Positions 25,056-34,899 of a stretch of DNA of 64,000 bases are shown here, piece after piece. The first letter of the stretch is position 1; each line of letters starts with the position of its first letter. This DNA comes from Ignavibacteriales bacterium. GTDB lineage: Bacteria; Bacteroidota; Ignavibacteria; Ignavibacteriales; Ignavibacteriaceae. The position numbers and the translations under genes were made by a program. The stretch is from contig CP054182.1 of the NCBI GenBank assembly GCA_015709675.1, forward strand, positions 2,645,448 to 2,709,447, in the 5' to 3' direction. The notes beneath the pieces are model-generated. The model was not told the DNA's origin. It searched no databases and saw only the letters and a list, made by a program, of their open reading frames with translations.

Positions 25056-26335
25056 TGTTTAATGTATTAGTACTAGCATATTATTTTCCGCCGCTTGGTT
25101 TAAGCGGGGTTCAAAGAACTCTCAAGTTCGTGAAATATCTTCCGGTAAATGGCTGGAAACCGACAGTGGTAACCTGCGAACCGGGAGCTTATTATGCGTT
25201 TGATGAGACCCTGCTTGATGATCTTAAAGAGAAGGATGTGGAAATCCACAGGGTAAAAGGGAAAGAGATAAATTCCCGTATGAGAAAAAAGGGGGTGGTA
25301 GAAATGCCTCCTGAATTTATCAGAAAGACCCTCAAGTTTATCAGCAGTATATTTTATGTGACTGATAATAAAAAATCCTGGTCGGTGCAGGCATATCAAT
25401 ACTGCCGTAAAATGATGTCAGAGTATAAATATGACCTGATATTCATCAGCGGTCCGCCGTTTTCCATGTTTGAGTATGCCGCTCTGCTTAAAACCGAGTT
25501 TGATGTTCCGCTGATCATTGATTACCGTGACCTCTGGCTTGGCAACCACTTTGCTATATATCCAACTCCGCTTCATAAATCGCTTAACAGGAAAAAGGAA
25601 TATGAAGTGTTGAAATCAGCGGATAAGATTATTGTGACGAACAGAAAAATAAAAGAACGGCTGATGGAATACTATCAGTTTCTTAAGTTTCCTGATGTTA
25701 CCATATTGCCTCACGGTTATGATCCTGAGGATTTTAATAATAACCCGCAGAATATAACTCTTGAAAAAGGGTATTTCCATCTGACATATTCCGGCATATT
25801 TTACGAACATATCACGCCGAAATATTTTCTTGAAGCATTCCGGATGATTGCGGATGAAAAACCGGAAGCAGCTAAAAAAATGAAGCTTCATTTCGCCGGA
25901 ATACTCCGTAAAGAAAACCGCAAATTGATAACCAGACTTGGCCTGAGTGAATATGTTGTTGAGCATGGCTATCTGAACCATACTGACGCAGTCGGGATTC
26001 TTAAATCAAGTTCAGCACTCTGGTTCATGGTTGGGGAAGGCAAAAACAGTGATACTATTTCAAGCGGAAAAATGTTTGAATATATCGGTTCCGGAAAACC
26101 AATTCTTGCATGTCTGGCTGATGGTGCATTAAAATCAACGTTACAGGAGTATAATGCTGCTGTGATCGTACCGCCGGCTGATGTGCTGGCTATTAAAAAT
26201 GCAATTCTATCATTGTACGCTGATTTCCAGAAATCATCGCTGTCTGAGGGAAGCACAGAGTTCCGTGATAAGTTTCGAAGAGATTACCTCACTGATATAT
26301 TAGCAAAGGAGTTTAATGCAGCATTACGAGTCTGA
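25055..26335 (+). CDS. Glycosyltransferase, GT4-like (GT-B fold)
   Basis: A 426-residue GT-B enzyme. The N-terminus LAYYFPPLGLSGVQRTLKF is the typical glycine-rich acceptor-side loop, and IDYRDLW is often seen in this group. The C-terminal half has the donor-sugar E-x7-E-like region EYIGSGKPILACL. It probably adds a sugar to a cell-surface polysaccharide or lipid; substrates cannot be read from the sequence. It is embedded in the purine operon and overlaps purD by 20 bases. Confidence 0.8.
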   Translation: MFNVLVLAYYFPPLGLSGVQRTLKFVKYLPVNGWKPTVVTCEPGAYYAFDETLLDDLKEKDVEIHRVKGKEINSRMRKKGVVEMPPEFIRKTLKFISSIFYVTDNKKSWSVQAYQYCRKMMSEYKYDLIFISGPPFSMFEYAALLKTEFDVPLIIDYRDLWLGNHFAIYPTPLHKSLNRKKEYEVLKSADKIIVTNRKIKERLMEYYQFLKFPDVTILPHGYDPEDFNNNPQNITLEKGYFHLTYSGIFYEHITPKYFLEAFRMIADEKPEAAKKMKLHFAGILRKENRKLITRLGLSEYVVEHGYLNHTDAVGILKSSSALWFMVGEGKNSDTISSGKMFEYIGSGKPILACLADGALKSTLQEYNAAVIVPPADVLAIKNAILSLYADFQKSSLSEGSTEFRDKFRRDYLTDILAKEFNAALRV

Positions 26336-27626
26336 AAGCGCAATACTCATCATTGGCTCTGGAGCGCGTGAGCATGCATTAGCCAGAAGGATTAAAGAGG
26401 GTAAGCCGGAAAGAATAATCTATTTCCTCCCCGGTAACGGCGGTACTGAAGACACAGGCACCAATTTAACCAGCATCTCTTCCTCTGATTTTAACGCAAT
26501 TCATCAGTTCATCATTGATAAAAAGATTGAACTTGTTGTAATAGGACCTGAAAAGCCGCTGGTGGACGGGCTTTCAGACTTTCTCCGTGAAAAAGGAATT
26601 CCCGTTTTTGGTCCTTCAAAAGAAGCCGCAAAAATAGAATCTGATAAAAGTTTTGCTAAAAAACTGATGATACGGGCCGGTGTTCCGACTGCTTTCTTCA
26701 GAGAGTTCACCCGGTCTGAATGGAAAGAAGCAGAGGAATATATAGGACAACATTCCATGCCTGTGGTGATCAAGGCATCAGGTCTTGCAGCAGGCAAGGG
26801 TGTAATTATTGCAGAAACAACAGCAGAAGCAAATGCGGCTATTAAAGATATATTTGAGAAGAACATCTTTGGTAAGGCCGGTGATACGATTGTTATCGAA
26901 GAGTTTATGGAGGGGGAAGAAGCATCAGTTTTCGCTATTACTGATGGTCAGTCATTTGTATTACTCCCGCCCGCTCAGGATCATAAAAGAATCGGGGATA
27001 ATGATACCGGTAAAAATACCGGCGGTATGGGTGCTTATGCTCCGGCACCGCTCGTTAATGATTCAATGATGCAGATTATTGGTGAAAAAATTATCAAACC
27101 CGTGCTGTATCAGATGCTTATTGAAGGTTATCCTTTCAGCGGTTGTCTTTATGCTGGTCTGATGCTTACGGAGAGCGGTCCCAAAGTTGTTGAATTTAAC
27201 TGTCGTTTTGGTGACCCTGAAACCCAGGCGGTAATGGAAGTTATAGAAGGGGATTTTCTTAAACTCCTGAGTGATTCAGCCAAGGGTAAGGTTGAGCAAG
27301 AAACCGTCCGGCATAACGGAAAATGTGCGGTGACGGTTGTAACTGGCTCTGCAGGATATCCTGACTCATTTGAAACTGGTTTTGAAATCTCGGGGCTGAA
27401 CGAAATTCCTGACAAAGTATCAATATATCACGCCGGTACGAAATCTGCTGATGGTAAAATTATCACCAGCGGAGGCAGAGTCTTAAGCGTGACCGGAGTT
27501 TCTGAAAAGGGCTCTCTGGCCGAAGCTATATACACAGCATATTCAGCAGTTCAGAAAATATCCTATCAAAACATCTATTATCGTAAGGATATCGGGGGAA
27601 AAGGATTGAAATACAGCGGGGATTAA
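26316..27626 (+). CDS. purD: Phosphoribosylamine-glycine ligase
   Basis: ATP-grasp enzyme making GAR from phosphoribosylamine, glycine and ATP in purine synthesis. GSGAREHALARRI at the N-terminus, GPEKPLVDGL, the ATP-grasp segment PVVIKASGLAAGKGV, the catalytic block QDHKRIGDNDTGKNTGGMGAY and FNCRFGDPETQ are all present. The length of 436 residues is normal. The ATG lies inside the end of the glycosyltransferase gene. The DnaE-like gene starts directly after the stop. Confidence 0.96.
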   Translation: MQHYESESAILIIGSGAREHALARRIKEGKPERIIYFLPGNGGTEDTGTNLTSISSSDFNAIHQFIIDKKIELVVIGPEKPLVDGLSDFLREKGIPVFGPSKEAAKIESDKSFAKKLMIRAGVPTAFFREFTRSEWKEAEEYIGQHSMPVVIKASGLAAGKGVIIAETTAEANAAIKDIFEKNIFGKAGDTIVIEEFMEGEEASVFAITDGQSFVLLPPAQDHKRIGDNDTGKNTGGMGAYAPAPLVNDSMMQIIGEKIIKPVLYQMLIEGYPFSGCLYAGLMLTESGPKVVEFNCRFGDPETQAVMEVIEGDFLKLLSDSAKGKVEQETVRHNGKCAVTVVTGSAGYPDSFETGFEISGLNEIPDKVSIYHAGTKSADGKIITSGGRVLSVTGVSEKGSLAEAIYTAYSAVQKISYQNIYYRKDIGGKGLKYSGD

Positions 27627-29222
27627 ATGATACCGCTCAGGATACACACCCACCACTCTCTGCTGCGCTCCGCGGTAGCAGTAAAATCACTTGTTGAAAA
27701 GGCAGCGGAATATAAACTTTCCGCGCTTGCAATTACTGATTATAATTCCATGGCCGGCTTTGTTCAGTTGGCCAAGGCCTGCAAAGAAAACAACATCAAG
27801 CCGATTTACGGAGTATATCTTGATGACCCGCAGAAACCGGAGCAGTATATCTGCCTGCTTGCCAAAAACAGGGAAGGGTATAATGATATATGCCGCCTGA
27901 TTACCTCCAGAAAACTGCAGACAGATTTTTCACTTGGTGCATCAATCAGGGGGCTCTCTTCTAACCTTTTTGCGTTCAGTGCTTCTCCTGAAATAGTTGA
28001 AAGCCAGAATAATAATCCCTTTTTTTTTGTTGAGCTGATTGATTCTGTCTATTATAAAAAGCAGAACAAAATTCTGTTTGATTATTGCGAAAAACATCAG
28101 CTCAGATATATTGTTTCACCTTCAGTATATTTTTTGCGGAAAGATGATTTTATTCTCTACCAGGTTCTTAATGCAATGCGCATCAAAGGTACGGTTGAAA
28201 ATCTTGAACCGGAATATCAGCATAATGATCTCTGGCTGAAAAATCCTTCTGATGTTGAGAAACGGTGGCAGAAGATAACAGGTGCATCTGAAAATACTGA
28301 ACTGATAGCAGAGCAGTGTTCTGTTGATATAGAACTGGGGAAATATAAATTCCCGGAATTTCAGCTTCCCGATGGGGAAGATGCCTATTCAAAACTTTAT
28401 GGCATTTGTTCAGCCGGACTGAGCAAAAGAAAAACCATTGACCGCCAGAAGGCAAATGAACGGCTGCTTTATGAACTGAGTGTAATAAAAGACCTGAAAT
28501 TTCTTGATTATTTTCTTGTTGTTTGGGATATCATTGAGTCGGCCAAAAAGCGCGGAATGTATTTTATTGGCCGTGGTTCTGCGGCTAACAGTATCGTTTC
28601 TTATGCTATGGGGCTTACAGGAGTTGACCCTCTTGAGCATGATCTTTATTTTGAAAGGTTTCTTAATAGGGGTCGGCTCTCTCCGCCTGATATAGATATT
28701 GATTTTTCCTGGAAGGAGCGGGATGAAATCATAAAGTATGTATTTAAGAAGTACGGGTACGAAAAAACCGCGATGATCTGCACTACGGTTACATTCCGCG
28801 GCCGTTCAGCATTCCGTGAAGTTGCAAAGGTATATGGATTTTCTGACAGGGAAATCTCAAAATTCAGTAAATTTATACCCTGGACTTCAGCCGCTAATTT
28901 ACCAGAGATTCATAACTTGTATCCCGAATCAAGAAATCTTCCATTTGACAAAGAACCCTGGAAATCAATCGTTCTGCTTGCCTCGCAGCTTGGCGGTTAC
29001 CCGAGGCATTTAAGCATACATCCGGGGGGTATTGTTATTGCGCCTGACAGAATTACCAATCATGTTGCGCTCGACTACGCACAGAATAAAGGACTGGGGC
29101 TTGTTGTTACGCAGACTGATATGTACAGCATTGAAGATCTCGGACTGGTAAAAATTGACCTTCTCAGCCAGCGCTCACTCGGCGTGCTTAAAACAACACT
29201 GACTATGCTTAACGAAGAATAA
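27627..29222 (+). CDS. Half-length DnaE-like protein: degenerate PHP domain and truncated PolIII-alpha palm
   Basis: A 531-residue protein homologous to the N-terminal half of bacterial DNA polymerase III alpha (about 1000-1200 residues). A PHP domain (about 1-225) is followed by the catalytic core with GRGSAANSIVSYAMGLTGVD and PDIDIDF. The three catalytic aspartates are present: D357, D359 and D511 (KIDLL). The protein stops 20 residues after D511, so the fingers, HhH, clamp-binding and OB parts are absent. The PHP metal site is degraded (TDY for TDH). dinB starts 6 bases later, so no lost 3' half is hidden downstream. Confidence 0.85.
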   Translation: MIPLRIHTHHSLLRSAVAVKSLVEKAAEYKLSALAITDYNSMAGFVQLAKACKENNIKPIYGVYLDDPQKPEQYICLLAKNREGYNDICRLITSRKLQTDFSLGASIRGLSSNLFAFSASPEIVESQNNNPFFFVELIDSVYYKKQNKILFDYCEKHQLRYIVSPSVYFLRKDDFILYQVLNAMRIKGTVENLEPEYQHNDLWLKNPSDVEKRWQKITGASENTELIAEQCSVDIELGKYKFPEFQLPDGEDAYSKLYGICSAGLSKRKTIDRQKANERLLYELSVIKDLKFLDYFLVVWDIIESAKKRGMYFIGRGSAANSIVSYAMGLTGVDPLEHDLYFERFLNRGRLSPPDIDIDFSWKERDEIIKYVFKKYGYEKTAMICTTVTFRGRSAFREVAKVYGFSDREISKFSKFIPWTSAANLPEIHNLYPESRNLPFDKEPWKSIVLLASQLGGYPRHLSIHPGGIVIAPDRITNHVALDYAQNKGLGLVVTQTDMYSIEDLGLVKIDLLSQRSLGVLKTTLTMLNEE

Positions 29223-29228
29223 CGCTGA

Positions 29229-30401
29229 ATGATATTTCATCTTGACCTTGATGCGTTTTTTGTTTCCGTTGAAAGGATACTTGACCCATCACTTAATGAC
29301 AAACCGGTGATCGTGGGCGGAGACCCTCACGGCCGGGGAGTGGTTGCCGCCTGTTCGTATGAAGCACGGAAGTTCGGACTCCACTCTGCCATGCCAATCC
29401 GCCAGGCCTACAGGTTATGCCCTCAGGGGATATATATCCACGGGCATCACGAAGAATACAGCAGGTATTCCGGTCTGGTTAAGGAAATTCTTCAGAGATA
29501 TGCACCCATACTTGAACAGGCATCTGTGGATGAGTTTTATATGGATTTCAGCGGCTGCGGAAAAATCTATGGCTCCCTTTTTAAACTGGCTACTGAACTT
29601 CAGGCCGTCATAAAAAAAGAAACCGGTTTGCCTTGTTCCATTGGAATAGGAGCAAATAAAACCATTGCAAAAATTGCCTCTGATTTTAATAAACCTGCCG
29701 GAATTACTTTTGTGATTAAAGGAAGAGAAAAAGAATTTCTTCATCCGCTTCCTGTTGAGGTAATACCGGGTGTCGGCAAAAAATTCCTGGCACAGCTTAA
29801 CGCAAGAGCGATATATAAGATTGGCGATGTGCTTAAACTTCCGCTTGATTTTATTACCTCTTCATTCGGTAAAGCGGGGATGGATTTATGGGAAAAAGCA
29901 CAGGGTAGGGGGAATACCATACTCACCGTTGAGCGTGAGCAAAAAAGTATTTCAAAAGAAGTTACCTTATCAAATGATTCATCGGACAAAAAAGAACTGA
30001 TAAAAGTGCTGTTTATGCTGACCGGAAGAGTCTGCCAGACGCTGCGTGATCAGTATTCGCTTGCATCAACCATCTCAGTAAAGATCAGGTATTCAGATTT
30101 TGAAACGGTACTCCGCTCCCACACCATAAAATCAACTGACGATGATCAGACGGTATTTGAAACCGCAAAAGAGTTGTTTGAAAATGCGTATCAGAGAAGA
30201 GTTGCGCTGCGCCTGATTGGAATAAAATTATCCAACTTTACTTCCTCAGGCCGTCAGGAGCAGTTATTTGAAGAAGTGCAGGAAAAGCGGGATAAACTCA
30301 TTGAAGCAGTGAATGTCCTGCGGGAAAAATACGGCTATTCCGCCCTGAAACTGGGAATTACGACAGATTCTGAGATAACGAAAAGATTTAACAAGGATTG
30401 A
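29229..30401 (+). CDS. dinB: Y-family DNA polymerase IV (DinB)
   Basis: Translesion polymerase of 390 residues. Catalytic carboxylates D6/D8 (FHLDLDAFF) and D101-E102 (SVDEFYMD) are intact, with the SYEARKFGL fingers motif and a phenylalanine steric gate. The helix-hairpin-helix VIPGVGKKFLAQL and the little-finger domain follow. QEQLF near residue 340 is a good beta-clamp-binding motif, so it should act at forks. It forms a two-gene unit with the short DnaE-like protein, recalling ImuB-DnaE2 mutasomes. No LexA-type box was found by eye. Confidence 0.93.
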   Translation: MIFHLDLDAFFVSVERILDPSLNDKPVIVGGDPHGRGVVAACSYEARKFGLHSAMPIRQAYRLCPQGIYIHGHHEEYSRYSGLVKEILQRYAPILEQASVDEFYMDFSGCGKIYGSLFKLATELQAVIKKETGLPCSIGIGANKTIAKIASDFNKPAGITFVIKGREKEFLHPLPVEVIPGVGKKFLAQLNARAIYKIGDVLKLPLDFITSSFGKAGMDLWEKAQGRGNTILTVEREQKSISKEVTLSNDSSDKKELIKVLFMLTGRVCQTLRDQYSLASTISVKIRYSDFETVLRSHTIKSTDDDQTVFETAKELFENAYQRRVALRLIGIKLSNFTSSGRQEQLFEEVQEKRDKLIEAVNVLREKYGYSALKLGITTDSEITKRFNKD

Positions 30402-30610: not shown

Positions 30611-31945
30611 ATGAAGAACGAACTCCCACTTGCATATCTTCTTGTTTACCCTCTCTCTATTGGTAATAAACTGAGTAATGATGATAATATGGGGTATTAT
30701 GAGGCGAACTACTCCACCGACAGCCGGGGCAACATAACCGCAGACGAATACCGTTCAACTTCTAACATTACCTATGACAACAGGAATTTGCCCTTGCAGT
30801 TCAGCGCAAACGGAACAACGGTCAAGTATTCATACGATGACAACGGCAACCGTATATATAAAGAATTTGGTACAACTAAGGAGTTTTACCTTCGTGATCA
30901 TACTGGTCAGGAACTTGCAATATTCAAAGTTAGCGGGAGTTCAGATACGCTCATGTTTTATAACATTTACGGTCTTGGCTTGGAAGGCAGAGCAGAGCAA
31001 ACCTGGAGTTGGAACTATGAAACCGAACCACCGCAGATTGAACGGAGTGAGGAGCCGATATTTTATATCAAAGACCATCTGGGCACCATACGGGTGACCA
31101 TAAATAAACAAGGCACCATTCTATTTGCAGCAGACTACTGGCCTTACGGCGAAAAAATGGCAGAATATAACTCAGGAACCGGAACCGTACAGAGGTATAT
31201 ATTTACCGAAAAGGAACGCGATACCGAAACCGGCTACGATTATTTTGGAGCGCGGTTTTATGACAGTGACCTGGGCAGATGGATGACGGTTGACCCGCTG
31301 ATGGATAAATACCCCGGCTGGAGCCCTTATAATTATGTGATGGGGAACCCGCTGAGGTTGGTGGATCCGGATGGGATGAAGGTGAACGATGGCGATGAAG
31401 ATAAAAAGGATAAAGAGAAAAAAAATATAAATCTGTTGCAGGCTTTGTCAGATGCATGGTATGAACTTCAAATAACATTTACAGGTAGTGTTGTGAATCC
31501 AAGCGGAGGGAGTGAAATATCAAATCAAGCCGAGATAAGAAAGATCGTTTCAAGTGGAACAAAAGCAAAAGCAGTTAAGAAAAAAGTTGAAGAATCTGCC
31601 TATAAAGGATTGGAAGAAGTGGAAAATTATTCTGCCGAAACCTCAAGAATTGCAGGAGGAATTGCTTTATTTACGGTCTGGGCTCCACCAGTATCGGGTA
31701 CATTTTTTACTATCTCAAATATTTCAGGGAATATTAGTATGACAGCGGGAGTATTAAAGGCAGGTATATCACAATCATCATCTGATGGAATTAATGCAAG
31801 TGTAGATGCGGGAGTCTATTTCTTTGGGGCATTTATCGATCGAAAGATAGGAGCATCAAAAATTCTCTCCGATCAAGAAATAAAATTGACCAAGAATGTT
31901 TTTGGGAGTAGTTATAATGTGATAACTAATTCTTTAGGATTTTGA
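30611..31945 (+). CDS. Rhs-family protein, 5'-truncated, cassette A (hydrophobic C-terminal domain)
   Basis: A 444-residue protein with only the end of an Rhs shell: YD-type repeats (about residues 33-85), then KDHLGTIRVT, GYDYFGARFYDSDLGRWM and the core end NPLRLVDPDG near residue 256. After this junction comes a unique C-terminal domain of about 190 residues with a Gly/Ala-rich hydrophobic stretch (ETSRIAGGIALFT onward), possibly membrane-active. There is no signal peptide or N-terminal Rhs region, so it looks like an orphan 3' cassette. A two-helix membrane protein follows after one base and may be its immunity protein. Confidence 0.7.
   Translation: MKNELPLAYLLVYPLSIGNKLSNDDNMGYYEANYSTDSRGNITADEYRSTSNITYDNRNLPLQFSANGTTVKYSYDDNGNRIYKEFGTTKEFYLRDHTGQELAIFKVSGSSDTLMFYNIYGLGLEGRAEQTWSWNYETEPPQIERSEEPIFYIKDHLGTIRVTINKQGTILFAADYWPYGEKMAEYNSGTGTVQRYIFTEKERDTETGYDYFGARFYDSDLGRWMTVDPLMDKYPGWSPYNYVMGNPLRLVDPDGMKVNDGDEDKKDKEKKNINLLQALSDAWYELQITFTGSVVNPSGGSEISNQAEIRKIVSSGTKAKAVKKKVEESAYKGLEEVENYSAETSRIAGGIALFTVWAPPVSGTFFTISNISGNISMTAGVLKAGISQSSSDGINASVDAGVYFFGAFIDRKIGASKILSDQEIKLTKNVFGSSYNVITNSLGF
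31070..31170 (+). repeat. Rhs core repeat 1, copy A
   Basis: DNA encoding KDHLGTIRVT...YWPYGEKMAEY. Closely similar segments lie at about 34037-34136 and 35492-35590. The copies differ mostly at third codon positions. Confidence 0.8.
31232..31375 (+). repeat. Rhs core repeat 2, copy A
   Basis: DNA encoding GYDYFGAR...DPDG. It recurs at 32495-32640 and 34199-34340 with high identity, and homology stops just after DPDG in all three, the usual Rhs core/tip boundary. Confidence 0.85.
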
Positions 31946-31946
31946 T

Positions 31947-32153
31947 ATGTTGGTTGCAGATATAATTATTGGTTTTGTACTTTTAGGATCGCTCTATCTG
32001 GAATTTAAGGATCCAACTGCTGGGGTTGACGAAAAAGATTCTAATACTGATCTTGTATCCCGCATGGCTCAGTTTTCCATTAGAATAAAAACTATAAGTT
32101 TAATAGTAATAGGAATTATATATTTTATTATGCGATTATATACAATTTGGTGA
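31947..32153 (+). CDS. Small membrane protein, putative immunity of Rhs cassette A
   Basis: A 68-residue protein with two hydrophobic helices (about residues 3-18 and 49-65) and an acidic middle. It starts one base after the stop of Rhs cassette A. By analogy with Rhs-CT modules, a small gene directly after the toxin tip is the expected immunity gene, and a membrane protein would suit a membrane-active toxin. The family is unknown and the function is inference from position. Confidence 0.5.
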   Translation: MLVADIIIGFVLLGSLYLEFKDPTAGVDEKDSNTDLVSRMAQFSIRIKTISLIVIGIIYFIMRLYTIW

Positions 32154-32160
32154 TAACAAC

Positions 32161-32352
32161 CTGATTCTAGATTTAATTAACTTATTATTACTGGGATTAT
32201 GGATAATAGTTGCATATTATCTTGAACCTTTTAGAGAAGCAAAGCATTGGTCAGAGAAATTAAGATTCAGTTTAATTTGGTTTCAGATAGTAATGCTTTC
32301 TCTTAACTACATTGCTAAAGCCCTAAAATTGACAATACCAATGGATCAATAA
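32161..32352 (+). CDS. Possible small membrane ORF without a canonical start
   Basis: An open frame encoding about 63 residues with a hydrophobic N-terminus (LINLLLLGLWIIVAYYL) and a second hydrophobic segment. No in-frame ATG, GTG or TTG lies upstream of the coding stretch; CTG at 32161 or ATT at 32164 would be needed. It may be a decayed immunity or orphan gene. The alternative is chance AT-rich reading frame. Confidence 0.3.
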   Translation: MILDLINLLLLGLWIIVAYYLEPFREAKHWSEKLRFSLIWFQIVMLSLNYIAKALKLTIPMDQ

Positions 32353-32405
32353 CAAAATAGTCAGTTTTATAAAAGAATGTAAAAAATAGTGATTAATATA
32401 CCTAG

Positions 32406-33194
32406 ATGTTAATAGAAATATTGAAAGCATTAGCAATGAAGAATTTTGAGAAGAAACTCTCAACTTTCAATTCTCAACTTTCAACTTGTTCCGGCGGCTA
32501 CGATTATTTTGGAGCAAGGTTTTATGACTCTGACCTTGCCAGGTGGATGAGTGTTGATCCCATGGCAGATAAATACCCTGGCTGGAGCCCGTATAATTAT
32601 GTGATGGGTAATCCGTTGAATAGTATTGATCCAGATGGCAAGGAGGTACGACTAAATAACAGAAAGGATGCTGAAAGATTAGCGAAAGAGATAAACAAAG
32701 TACTTGGGGGAGAACACGTCTTTATTGTAGAAATCAAAATTAATGATGGGGATAATAATCAACACTATTTTAGGATTGATGCAAATGAAAGTAGTTTAGA
32801 TTGGGGAAAGGACAAATACTTATCCGCAGCTTATGATGTTTTTGCTTCTACAGAACACATTTACAATGTTGTGTTCTCAGAAACCGCTGATAATAGAGGC
32901 GGAGGGTATTATAGATCGGATGGTGAAAGCATAATTGGCCAAATCAACCGAAACGAGAATAATCATGATGTAGTGCTTTCAAAGAGTGAAGCCCAATACA
33001 AGAATGGGACAGTTGGGGTAGTATTTTTTCATGAAGCAGTTGGACACGGACACCCAGTTACAGGGAGTGAGTTTAATGGTAATGCAACCAAAATAAGTGA
33101 ATATTTTGGGTATAACAAGCATTTGTTTCACAAAGGATATGTTAAGGAAACTGGGTGGAAAAGTAGTCAGTTGAATCTTTGGCGAAGGAAATGA
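32406..33194 (+). CDS. Rhs-family fragment, cassette B (putative metallopeptidase-like C-terminal domain)
   Basis: A 262-residue protein holding only the last Rhs core segment (about residues 31-78, GGYDYFGARF to DPDG). A distinct C-terminal domain contains FFHEAVGHGHPV, with H209, E210, H214 and H216, near a HExxH zinc motif but with one extra residue between. The first 30 residues are translated from a TCAACTTTCAA-type repeat (32456-32487) joined directly to the Rhs core, so the native 5' end was replaced by recombination. The ATG at 32406 is formal; expression is doubtful. A membrane protein gene follows by one base. Confidence 0.6.
   Translation: MLIEILKALAMKNFEKKLSTFNSQLSTCSGGYDYFGARFYDSDLARWMSVDPMADKYPGWSPYNYVMGNPLNSIDPDGKEVRLNNRKDAERLAKEINKVLGGEHVFIVEIKINDGDNNQHYFRIDANESSLDWGKDKYLSAAYDVFASTEHIYNVVFSETADNRGGGYYRSDGESIIGQINRNENNHDVVLSKSEAQYKNGTVGVVFFHEAVGHGHPVTGSEFNGNATKISEYFGYNKHLFHKGYVKETGWKSSQLNLWRRK
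32456..32487 (+). repeat. S23-element-type repeat at the 5' junction of Rhs cassette B
   Basis: Two units of the CTCAACTTTCAA type. The same sequence family and orientation is seen at 36015-36044, right of the four-helix-bundle gene. Here it abuts the Rhs core directly. Confidence 0.7.
32495..32640 (+). repeat. Rhs core repeat 2, copy B
   Basis: Second copy of the GYDYFGAR...DPDG-coding segment; see 31232-31375 and 34199-34340. Confidence 0.85.
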
Positions 33195-33195
33195 A

Positions 33196-33915
33196 ATGAA
33201 AGAGCAAATTCAGTATTTTTTCTTATCAGCCGTAGTAATTCTAATAATAGTTCTTAACTATATCTATTTTAAAATTAGTCCTTCCGGAGAAATAGTTCAT
33301 TTAGTAGATGGATATTCAACATTCTTCGGAACAAGTAATGGTCTTGGAATTGATGGAATGTTTACTAAAGACTATGCAATATTTGGATTCTCTCCTTCAA
33401 TACTATTTATTATAGTTACAACAATATTTTTACAGAATAGCAAACTTCAGGAGAAAATAAGCAAATCAAATAGTGAGAATATTCAATTAAGCTCAATACT
33501 TGTAATTTCTTTAACTATTTTAACGATCTCGATACTTTGTAGCCCATATTTTGTAAGTATGAGATTTTTTGAAAATCCTTATTATTTTATCGTTATTGGA
33601 GTATTCTTCTGTTTTGTACTTACAAATATATTTAATATGAAAGATATTCTTGAGGGAGATGGTAATAGAATTATAAAGATTGGAATCACGAGTTTTTTAA
33701 TTGGGTGTTCATTAGCTATTGAAACTTCAAATTATTTTGATTTTTTTCATAATGAAGGAACAAATATTCACCGTGATATCAATGGTGCAATCATTGTACC
33801 TTATAATTTTATGTCTCATTTAAATTTACCTGGATATTTTTTATGGCGTGGATTATTATATTTTAATATTATAACCTTATTCTACCAATTATGCAGGATG
33901 TATAGCAAACGTTAA
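33196..33915 (+). CDS. Polytopic membrane protein, putative immunity of Rhs cassette B
   Basis: A 239-residue protein with about six hydrophobic segments and no recognised family. It starts one base after cassette B, the position expected for an immunity gene, although six-helix immunity proteins are less common for soluble peptidase tips. The gene is markedly AT-rich compared with the flanking housekeeping genes, which supports acquisition by transfer. Function is unknown. Confidence 0.5.
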   Translation: MKEQIQYFFLSAVVILIIVLNYIYFKISPSGEIVHLVDGYSTFFGTSNGLGIDGMFTKDYAIFGFSPSILFIIVTTIFLQNSKLQEKISKSNSENIQLSSILVISLTILTISILCSPYFVSMRFFENPYYFIVIGVFFCFVLTNIFNMKDILEGDGNRIIKIGITSFLIGCSLAIETSNYFDFFHNEGTNIHRDINGAIIVPYNFMSHLNLPGYFLWRGLLYFNIITLFYQLCRMYSKR

Positions 33916-33966
33916 GGAATATATAAACTTGAAATATAACGATTAAGGATAAAAATATTTTTTACG

Positions 33967-34899
33967 ATGTGCTGCGATAAAACCCGGATAGATTCTATTT
34001 TGATCGAGCGGAGTGATGAACCATATTACTACATCAAAGACCATCTGGGTACCATACGAGTTACTTTGAATAAGCAGGGTACGGTGGTGTTTGCCGCAGA
34101 TTACTGGCCGTACGGAGAAAAAATGGCAGAGTATGTTTCCGGAGGTACCGCCGCGCAGAAATATGTGTTTACAGAAAAAGAAAGAGATATTGAAACCGGT
34201 TACGATTATTTTGGCGCAAGGTATTATGACTCAGATCTGGGCAGGTGGATGACCGTTGACCCTTTGGCTGATAAATACCCCGGCTGGAGCCCGTATAATT
34301 ATGTGATGGGCAATCCGCTGAATAGTTATGACCCGGATGGACGGGATGTTATTGTATTGCTTGCGCCAAAAGGGGCTAATAGAGCCGGGCACTCTGCAAT
34401 ACTTATCGGGAATAGTAAAACAGGTTGGACTTATATATCCAAAAACGGTACACTGGAGGGAGAAAAAGATTTATATGGGAAGTCAGATTTTACTTATTTA
34501 GTACAAGAAGAAGGAGAAACTTTTAATCAATTCCTTGCAGAAGTTGAGGACAGGGATAGGCAAGATTATGAGGTGGGTTATTGGATGATTTCCGATACAG
34601 ACGAAGATAGAAAAATGATTAATGCAGCCTTAACAAATGCTAAGGAACTTTATAAATTGCTCACAAACAACTGCATGGATGTTGTTACAAAAGCTCTTGA
34701 GTCTATAGCATTACACGGTGGCCATGTCAACATGCCCATGAATGGGAATGGAATTAGTAGTGGTGTTACCTATAAAGACTATAATGCGATACCAAATATT
34801 CGATATGAAATTATAAAAGCTAATAATGTGGGATTTGAGTTAATCTTATCAAATGATACGGTTTATAAGAGAAAAAAAGCCGAAGCAGGGTTAGAATAA
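33967..34899 (+). CDS. Rhs-family fragment, cassette C (papain-like C-terminal domain)
   Basis: A 310-residue protein with Rhs core segments at about residues 24-56 and 78-125 ending DPDG. The C-terminal tip has GHSAILIG with H142, followed by GWTYISKNG, and later NNCMDVV with C236. A His followed much later by a Cys is the order of circularly permuted NlpC/P60-papain-like enzymes, so the tip is probably a peptidase, amidase or acyltransferase toxin. There is no signal peptide or Rhs N-terminus. A membrane-anchored protein follows 19 bases later. Confidence 0.65.
   Translation: MCCDKTRIDSILIERSDEPYYYIKDHLGTIRVTLNKQGTVVFAADYWPYGEKMAEYVSGGTAAQKYVFTEKERDIETGYDYFGARYYDSDLGRWMTVDPLADKYPGWSPYNYVMGNPLNSYDPDGRDVIVLLAPKGANRAGHSAILIGNSKTGWTYISKNGTLEGEKDLYGKSDFTYLVQEEGETFNQFLAEVEDRDRQDYEVGYWMISDTDEDRKMINAALTNAKELYKLLTNNCMDVVTKALESIALHGGHVNMPMNGNGISSGVTYKDYNAIPNIRYEIIKANNVGFELILSNDTVYKRKKAEAGLE
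34037..34136 (+). repeat. Rhs core repeat 1, copy C
   Basis: Copy of the KDHLGTIRVT...GEKMAEY-coding segment also found at 31070-31170 and 35492-35590. Confidence 0.8.
34199..34340 (+). repeat. Rhs core repeat 2, copy C
   Basis: Third copy of the GYDYFGAR...DPDG-coding segment; see 31232-31375. Confidence 0.85.

Follow-up and report, generated by a model that had tools for sequence, protein, structure and literature searches.

DnaE2B-PolY-RecA putative mutasomes have been proposed in Bacteroidetes (Timinskas et al. 2026, PMC12926913), and they are the closest described relatives of the system that we present here. The two have in common a degenerate PHP metal site, an active DinB with clamp and RecA-NT-like motifs, and no ImuB, and our trees place the polymerase described below beside full-length enzymes of that type. 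The difference is that here the polymerase is encoded by two genes, often far apart, with an SOS box on the C-terminal half only. The main text of that paper mentions neither Ignavibacteria nor a split DnaE2; its passages on "split" refer to tree partitions or to a split ImuB. The ImuA-ImuB-DnaE2 mutasome is similar in combining a LexA-controlled DnaE2-type polymerase with a Y-family protein. In our case, however, an active DinB replaces the inactive ImuB, there is no ImuB or ImuA candidate, the polymerase has two chains, and it belongs to a different DnaE2 clade.

Polymerases encoded by two genes have precedents. In cyanobacteria, the C-family DnaE comes from two separate genes joined by an intein (PMC6390638, PMC3919608); that enzyme is replicative and spliced to one chain, whereas in our case the replicative DnaE is intact and there is no intein. 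The B-family polymerase of Methanothermobacter (Kelman et al. 1999, as cited in PMC3984812) also consists of two polypeptides from separate genes without an intein, the contrast being that ours is a C-family enzyme. A natural two-chain, intein-free C-family polymerase was not found in the literature we searched, and searches for split DnaE2, ImuC or Ignavibacteria dnaE returned only inteins and unrelated papers. As for earlier surveys, a 2013 polymerase survey assigns DnaE1 and DnaE2 to one Ignavibacteria genome and describes fragmented sequences as rejoined or removed; it could have seen the split without discussing it.

Half of a polymerase next to dinB

The window, by which we mean the whole 64-kb stretch of DNA that was analyzed, corresponds to G000:C1:2645448-2709447 in a genome of a single 4.21-Mb contig (G000). 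An earlier note on this DNA had described a half-length PHP-PolIII-alpha reading frame ending 20 residues after its third catalytic Asp, with D357, D359 and D511 present, and an intact dinB 6 bp downstream with a clamp motif, and we confirm all of it. The first gene, the N-half (27627..29222, plus strand, 531 aa), is the front half of the split DnaE2B-type polymerase and includes a PHP domain with a degenerate metal site, the thumb and the palm. Its Pfam domains are PHP (residues 4-98) and DNA_pol3_alpha (257-513), with no Pfam match beyond residue 513. The second gene, dinB (29229..30401, plus strand, 390 aa), encodes a Y-family polymerase with IMS and IMS_C domains, the clamp motif QEQLFEE and a RecA-NT-like tail. 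Upstream, and given for context only, the stop codon of purD (26316..27626, plus strand) abuts the start of the N-half.

An AlphaFold2 model of the N-half (pLDDT 89, pTM 0.88) has E. coli DnaE as its best match (2hnh, Z 33.3), with residues 1-531 aligned to DnaE residues 6-575. Because the model aligns with DnaE only to residue 575, the N-half stops at the palm/fingers boundary. As the earlier note had stated, the 64-kb window encodes no fingers, HhH or OB regions of this polymerase.

The other half of the polymerase

The missing part is encoded elsewhere in the same genome. The C-half (G000:C1:3463467-3465146, minus strand) is a complete separate gene of 559 aa, 0.79 Mb from the N-half and outside the window, with fingers at residues 39-183, HhH at 261-345 and OB at 437-496. 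In a whole-genome search, we find exactly two palm cores, those of a 1158-aa replicative DnaE and of the N-half, and exactly two finger domains, those of the same replicative DnaE and of the C-half. The replicative DnaE is intact, and a search for a full-length copy elsewhere in the genome finds this enzyme alone.

The two halves are complementary. While the N-half covers E. coli DnaE up to residue 575, the C-half aligns with residues 589-1054, and their models match complementary parts of DnaE (C-half: pLDDT 80, pTM 0.74; best match DnaE 7pu7, Z 18.4). The finger-domain motifs are among the most conserved columns of the C-half. After the HhH region there is a QPGLF motif with conserved L368-F369, which we read as a putative internal clamp motif. 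The C-half may lack the replicative C-terminal (tau-binding) domain: none is seen, the protein ends about 45 residues past the OB fold, and this tail is of low confidence in the model. As in C-family DnaE2(B) enzymes, we find three catalytic Asp, a degenerate PHP and a grouping with DnaE2-type polymerases; palm and fingers are not in one polypeptide.

Conservation and co-occurrence of the halves

The half-length gene is not peculiar to this genome. We find the N-half reading frame in about 65 of 97 related genomes, at about 46-55% identity in general and 84% within the same genus, the nearest named relative being Ignavibacteriaceae bacterium SJ115 (84%). Both halves are present in 61 of the 97 genomes, the N-half only in 4, the C-half only in 5, and neither in 27 (Fisher 6e-15); for genomes at least 98% complete the counts are 39, 2, 3 and 18 (Fisher 1e-10), and both p-values overstate independence because the genomes share ancestry. 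Those at least 98% complete with a single half (N only, G024 and G031; C only, G003, G077 and G084) are all draft assemblies. In agreement with the co-occurrence, the both-or-neither contrast is also seen within genera, as in g37, where G090 has both halves and G069, G076, G079 and G083 have neither. The correlation between N-half and C-half pairwise distances is only moderate (r = 0.57, ragged ends included), and we do not use it as support.

Complete halves have constant lengths in 55 genomes, 528-586 aa for the N-half and 549-591 aa for the C-half. Their arrangement is anything but constant. The N-half precedes the C-half in G034 (with overlapping stop and start), G025 and G074, and follows it in G018 and G086. 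The halves diverge around dinB in G056, G082, G090, G048 and G070, converge in G081 and G087, and are unlinked in the one-contig genomes G000, G002, G019 and G026. Because order, orientation and linkage all vary, each half is an independent gene. A deletion or an assembly error, with a full-length gene in the relatives, is ruled out by the constant half-lengths in the ~65 relatives together with the unlinked halves in the four one-contig genomes.

Regarding the catalytic site, D357, D359 and GRGS are each invariant (55 of 55 N-halves), as is D511 (54 of 54). The PHP metal-site positions 39 (Y/T) and 64, on the other hand, are not H or E in nearly all split members. Between G000 and G001, dN/dS is 0.067 for the N-half, with changes mainly within its first 290 residues, 0.041 for the C-half and 0.027 for dinB.

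Origin of the split

Within the class, the polymerase is split in the order of the window's genome, Ignavibacteriales (families f1-f3), and in family f59. In other families (f56, f13 and f62) it is a single reading frame of about 1028-1068 aa, 30-34% identical to the N-half and 40-46% identical to the C-half. We built separate trees for the N and C parts, by a quick search without bootstrap. In both, all split members form one clade (support 99), which joins full-length Bacteroidota enzymes (96-97), apart from DnaE1 and from the ImuC-type DnaE2A. In the C tree, the closest enzymes are the full-length ones of the same class (92). The split form has one origin, and a single split event would be the simplest reading of these trees. 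An example of the full-length neighbor form, dinB followed by dnaE, is found on an Emticicia plasmid.

The cut falls in a linker, past the helix that follows the third Asp and ahead of the first conserved finger block. The N-half continues for about 20 residues after its last conserved motif (up to about 60 in f59), and the C-half has an extra, variable N-terminus of 40-50 residues that closes with a conserved FDI-D segment. A full-length relative in family f61 (L174, G496:C70, minus strand, ~2579-2606) has one in-frame TAG in the palm/fingers linker, at the same place as the cut; the TAG could stem from early fission, from decay or from a sequence error.

A LexA-type box on the fingers half

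A LexA-type palindrome, TAGTGNNCANATGNNCACTA, occurs near the start codon of the C-half in 45 of the 51 members of the order, allowing up to 2 mismatches. At that threshold, there are 46 sites over 868 kb of loci vs. 1 for a reversed control. In G000 there are just 3 such matches, two of them in the lexA promoter and the third right before the start codon of the C-half, and in 13 genomes every site with at most 1 mismatch is at lexA or at the C-half and none elsewhere. Since the same palindrome is found at lexA, we take TAGTGNNCANATGNNCACTA to be a putative LexA-binding site. As a side observation, recA (L220, G000:C1:2807948-2808733) has no close match to the box, and the LexA regulon of this genome may therefore be unusually small.

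The N-half is different. Upstream of it in the window there is no box with up to 2 mismatches, and elsewhere in the window there is one chance-level match with 3. Within 2.2 kb (for some loci the flank is 1.5 kb only), a box is present solely at N-halves that are linked to a C-half. N-halves of family f1 mostly follow purD, and in about 20 related genomes purD keeps this upstream position, with no dinB adjacent to the N-half; N-half transcription is thus probably housekeeping. Given this distribution of the box and the position of most f1 N-halves after purD, the putative LexA-type control is on the fingers half and not on the palm half.

The box is absent at the C-halves of family f59 and of G003, G009, G025 and G034. 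A diverged palindrome before the C-half of G009, TACCATACAAATGTATGGTA, was rejected, as 8 of 300 random windows reach an equal score. Full-length relatives have no box of the TAGTGNNCANATGNNCACTA type, and SOS control may therefore have arisen with or after the split.

DinB and RecA

G000 has one Y-family gene, the dinB of the window, one RecA-family match, and no ImuB or ImuA candidate in the whole genome. DinB tails keep a QxxLF clamp motif and the segment AxxKIRxKyGxxxIxxG, which looks like the RecA N-terminus, a likeness judged by eye and without a statistic. In G000, the RecA N-terminus reads IGVIEKAHGKGAIMKMG and the DinB segment VNVLREKYGYSALKLG. This tail segment fits the RecA-NT motif described in PMC6511836.

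The earlier note had suggested a possible two-gene mutasome, a count that is too low. At least three genes are involved (N-half, C-half and dinB), probably with RecA. Moreover, the N-half adjoins dinB in about 17 related genomes, and the ~20 genomes with the N-half after purD lack that adjacency.

A proposed two-subunit polymerase and its alternatives

We are confident that the N-half and the C-half form a two-subunit, intein-free translesion polymerase of the DnaE2B type acting with DinB, with SOS control on the fingers half only. We infer both its assembly and its activity. The N-half would contribute the PHP scaffold, the thumb and the catalytic palm, with three Asp for two-metal chemistry. 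The C-half would contribute the fingers, which grip the incoming nucleotide, together with the HhH and OB domains for DNA binding and the clamp-like motif. The halves would associate non-covalently across the palm/fingers boundary, and the assembled enzyme would cooperate at damaged forks with RecA and with DinB, whose tail has the clamp and RecA-NT-like motifs, as proposed for the Bacteroidetes DnaE2B-PolY-RecA mutasome.

The earlier note had left two readings side by side, a split polymerase with its other half elsewhere, and a non-catalytic or nuclease-like DnaE core that partners DinB on its own. The former is now strongly supported by the C-half itself, its co-occurrence with the N-half, their same single origin and the LexA-type control. 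The latter has in its favor that the N-half is without fingers and adjacent to dinB, both in the window and in the ~17 genomes, but a core of that kind does not explain why the catalytic Asp and GRGS are invariant while PHP positions 39 and 64 are not kept, nor why the C-half is conserved alongside, and the ~20 N-halves next to purD have no adjacent dinB; we find it improbable. One can also reverse the roles: SOS would induce the C-half to dock on the replicative DnaE1, or on the clamp of DnaE1, and so slow or modify replication, and the N-half would have a separate role. Genomes with only a C-half do occur, and taken alone the C-half is a putatively damage-regulated gene with clamp-like and OB modules. 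Yet its most conserved columns include the finger motifs, which have a meaning only in combination with a palm, the N-half has the same distribution and origin, and in G025, G034, G018 and G086 the two are neighboring genes on one strand, so that we hold this reading to be quite improbable.

Two further explanations deserve hardly any credence. The cyanobacterial precedent invites the idea that a split intein links the two chains once they are translated, but the N-half tail past the last conserved motif is too short for the N-part of an intein, neither half matches an intein family, and the N-terminal extensions of the C-half are variable and without a conserved HN-C/S/T splice junction. Nor can we give any real weight to a decaying duplicate, in which gene decay or an assembly break left two fragments. 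Both halves are indeed fragments of a normally full-length family, and the G496 relative has a single TAG at the same linker; they are nonetheless intact and under strong purifying selection, and dozens of genera have kept them, with closed genomes carrying them at unlinked loci.

Returning to the two-subunit polymerase, we lean, with a good deal of reserve, towards a damage-gated enzyme, in which the catalytic half is made constantly from the purine-synthesis locus and SOS makes only the fingers/clamp half, assembly of the split C-family polymerase being the switch. A damage response would make the missing C-half and so turn the enzyme on. The suggestion follows from the C-half having its own LexA-type box while the N-half, with dinB, has none. 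To our knowledge, SOS control of one half has no counterpart in the split B-family polymerase of Methanothermobacter.

A natural two-chain, intein-free C-family polymerase would mean that the bacterial Pol III fold can withstand being cut precisely between palm and fingers; it would supply a ready-made split polymerase for biochemistry, and it would offer a control of error-prone synthesis unlike UmuD cleavage or the co-transcription of a whole mutasome. For annotation, the N-half and C-half genes would be lost or masked in surveys that demand a complete polymerase region or that merge fragments.

Other genes near the halves

Some loci contain additional genes. In three genomes, we observe small toxin-antitoxin-like genes between the halves (L122:7012-7535, L128:4943-5466 and L109:3611-4075; RelB/YafQ-like pairs and a PIN-like gene on the opposite strand). 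Between dinB and the full-length dnaE, genomes of family f13 have a gene of 233-308 aa (L171:3068-3994, L172:8677-9378) that could be a further mutasome part. In the window itself, 3′ of dinB (30611-34899), at least 3 reading frames repeat an RHS-type core (YDYFGARFYDSDLGRWMTVDPL..DKYPGWSPYNYVMGNPL..DPDG) with C-terminal tips that differ, an arrangement that resembles an RHS cassette array.
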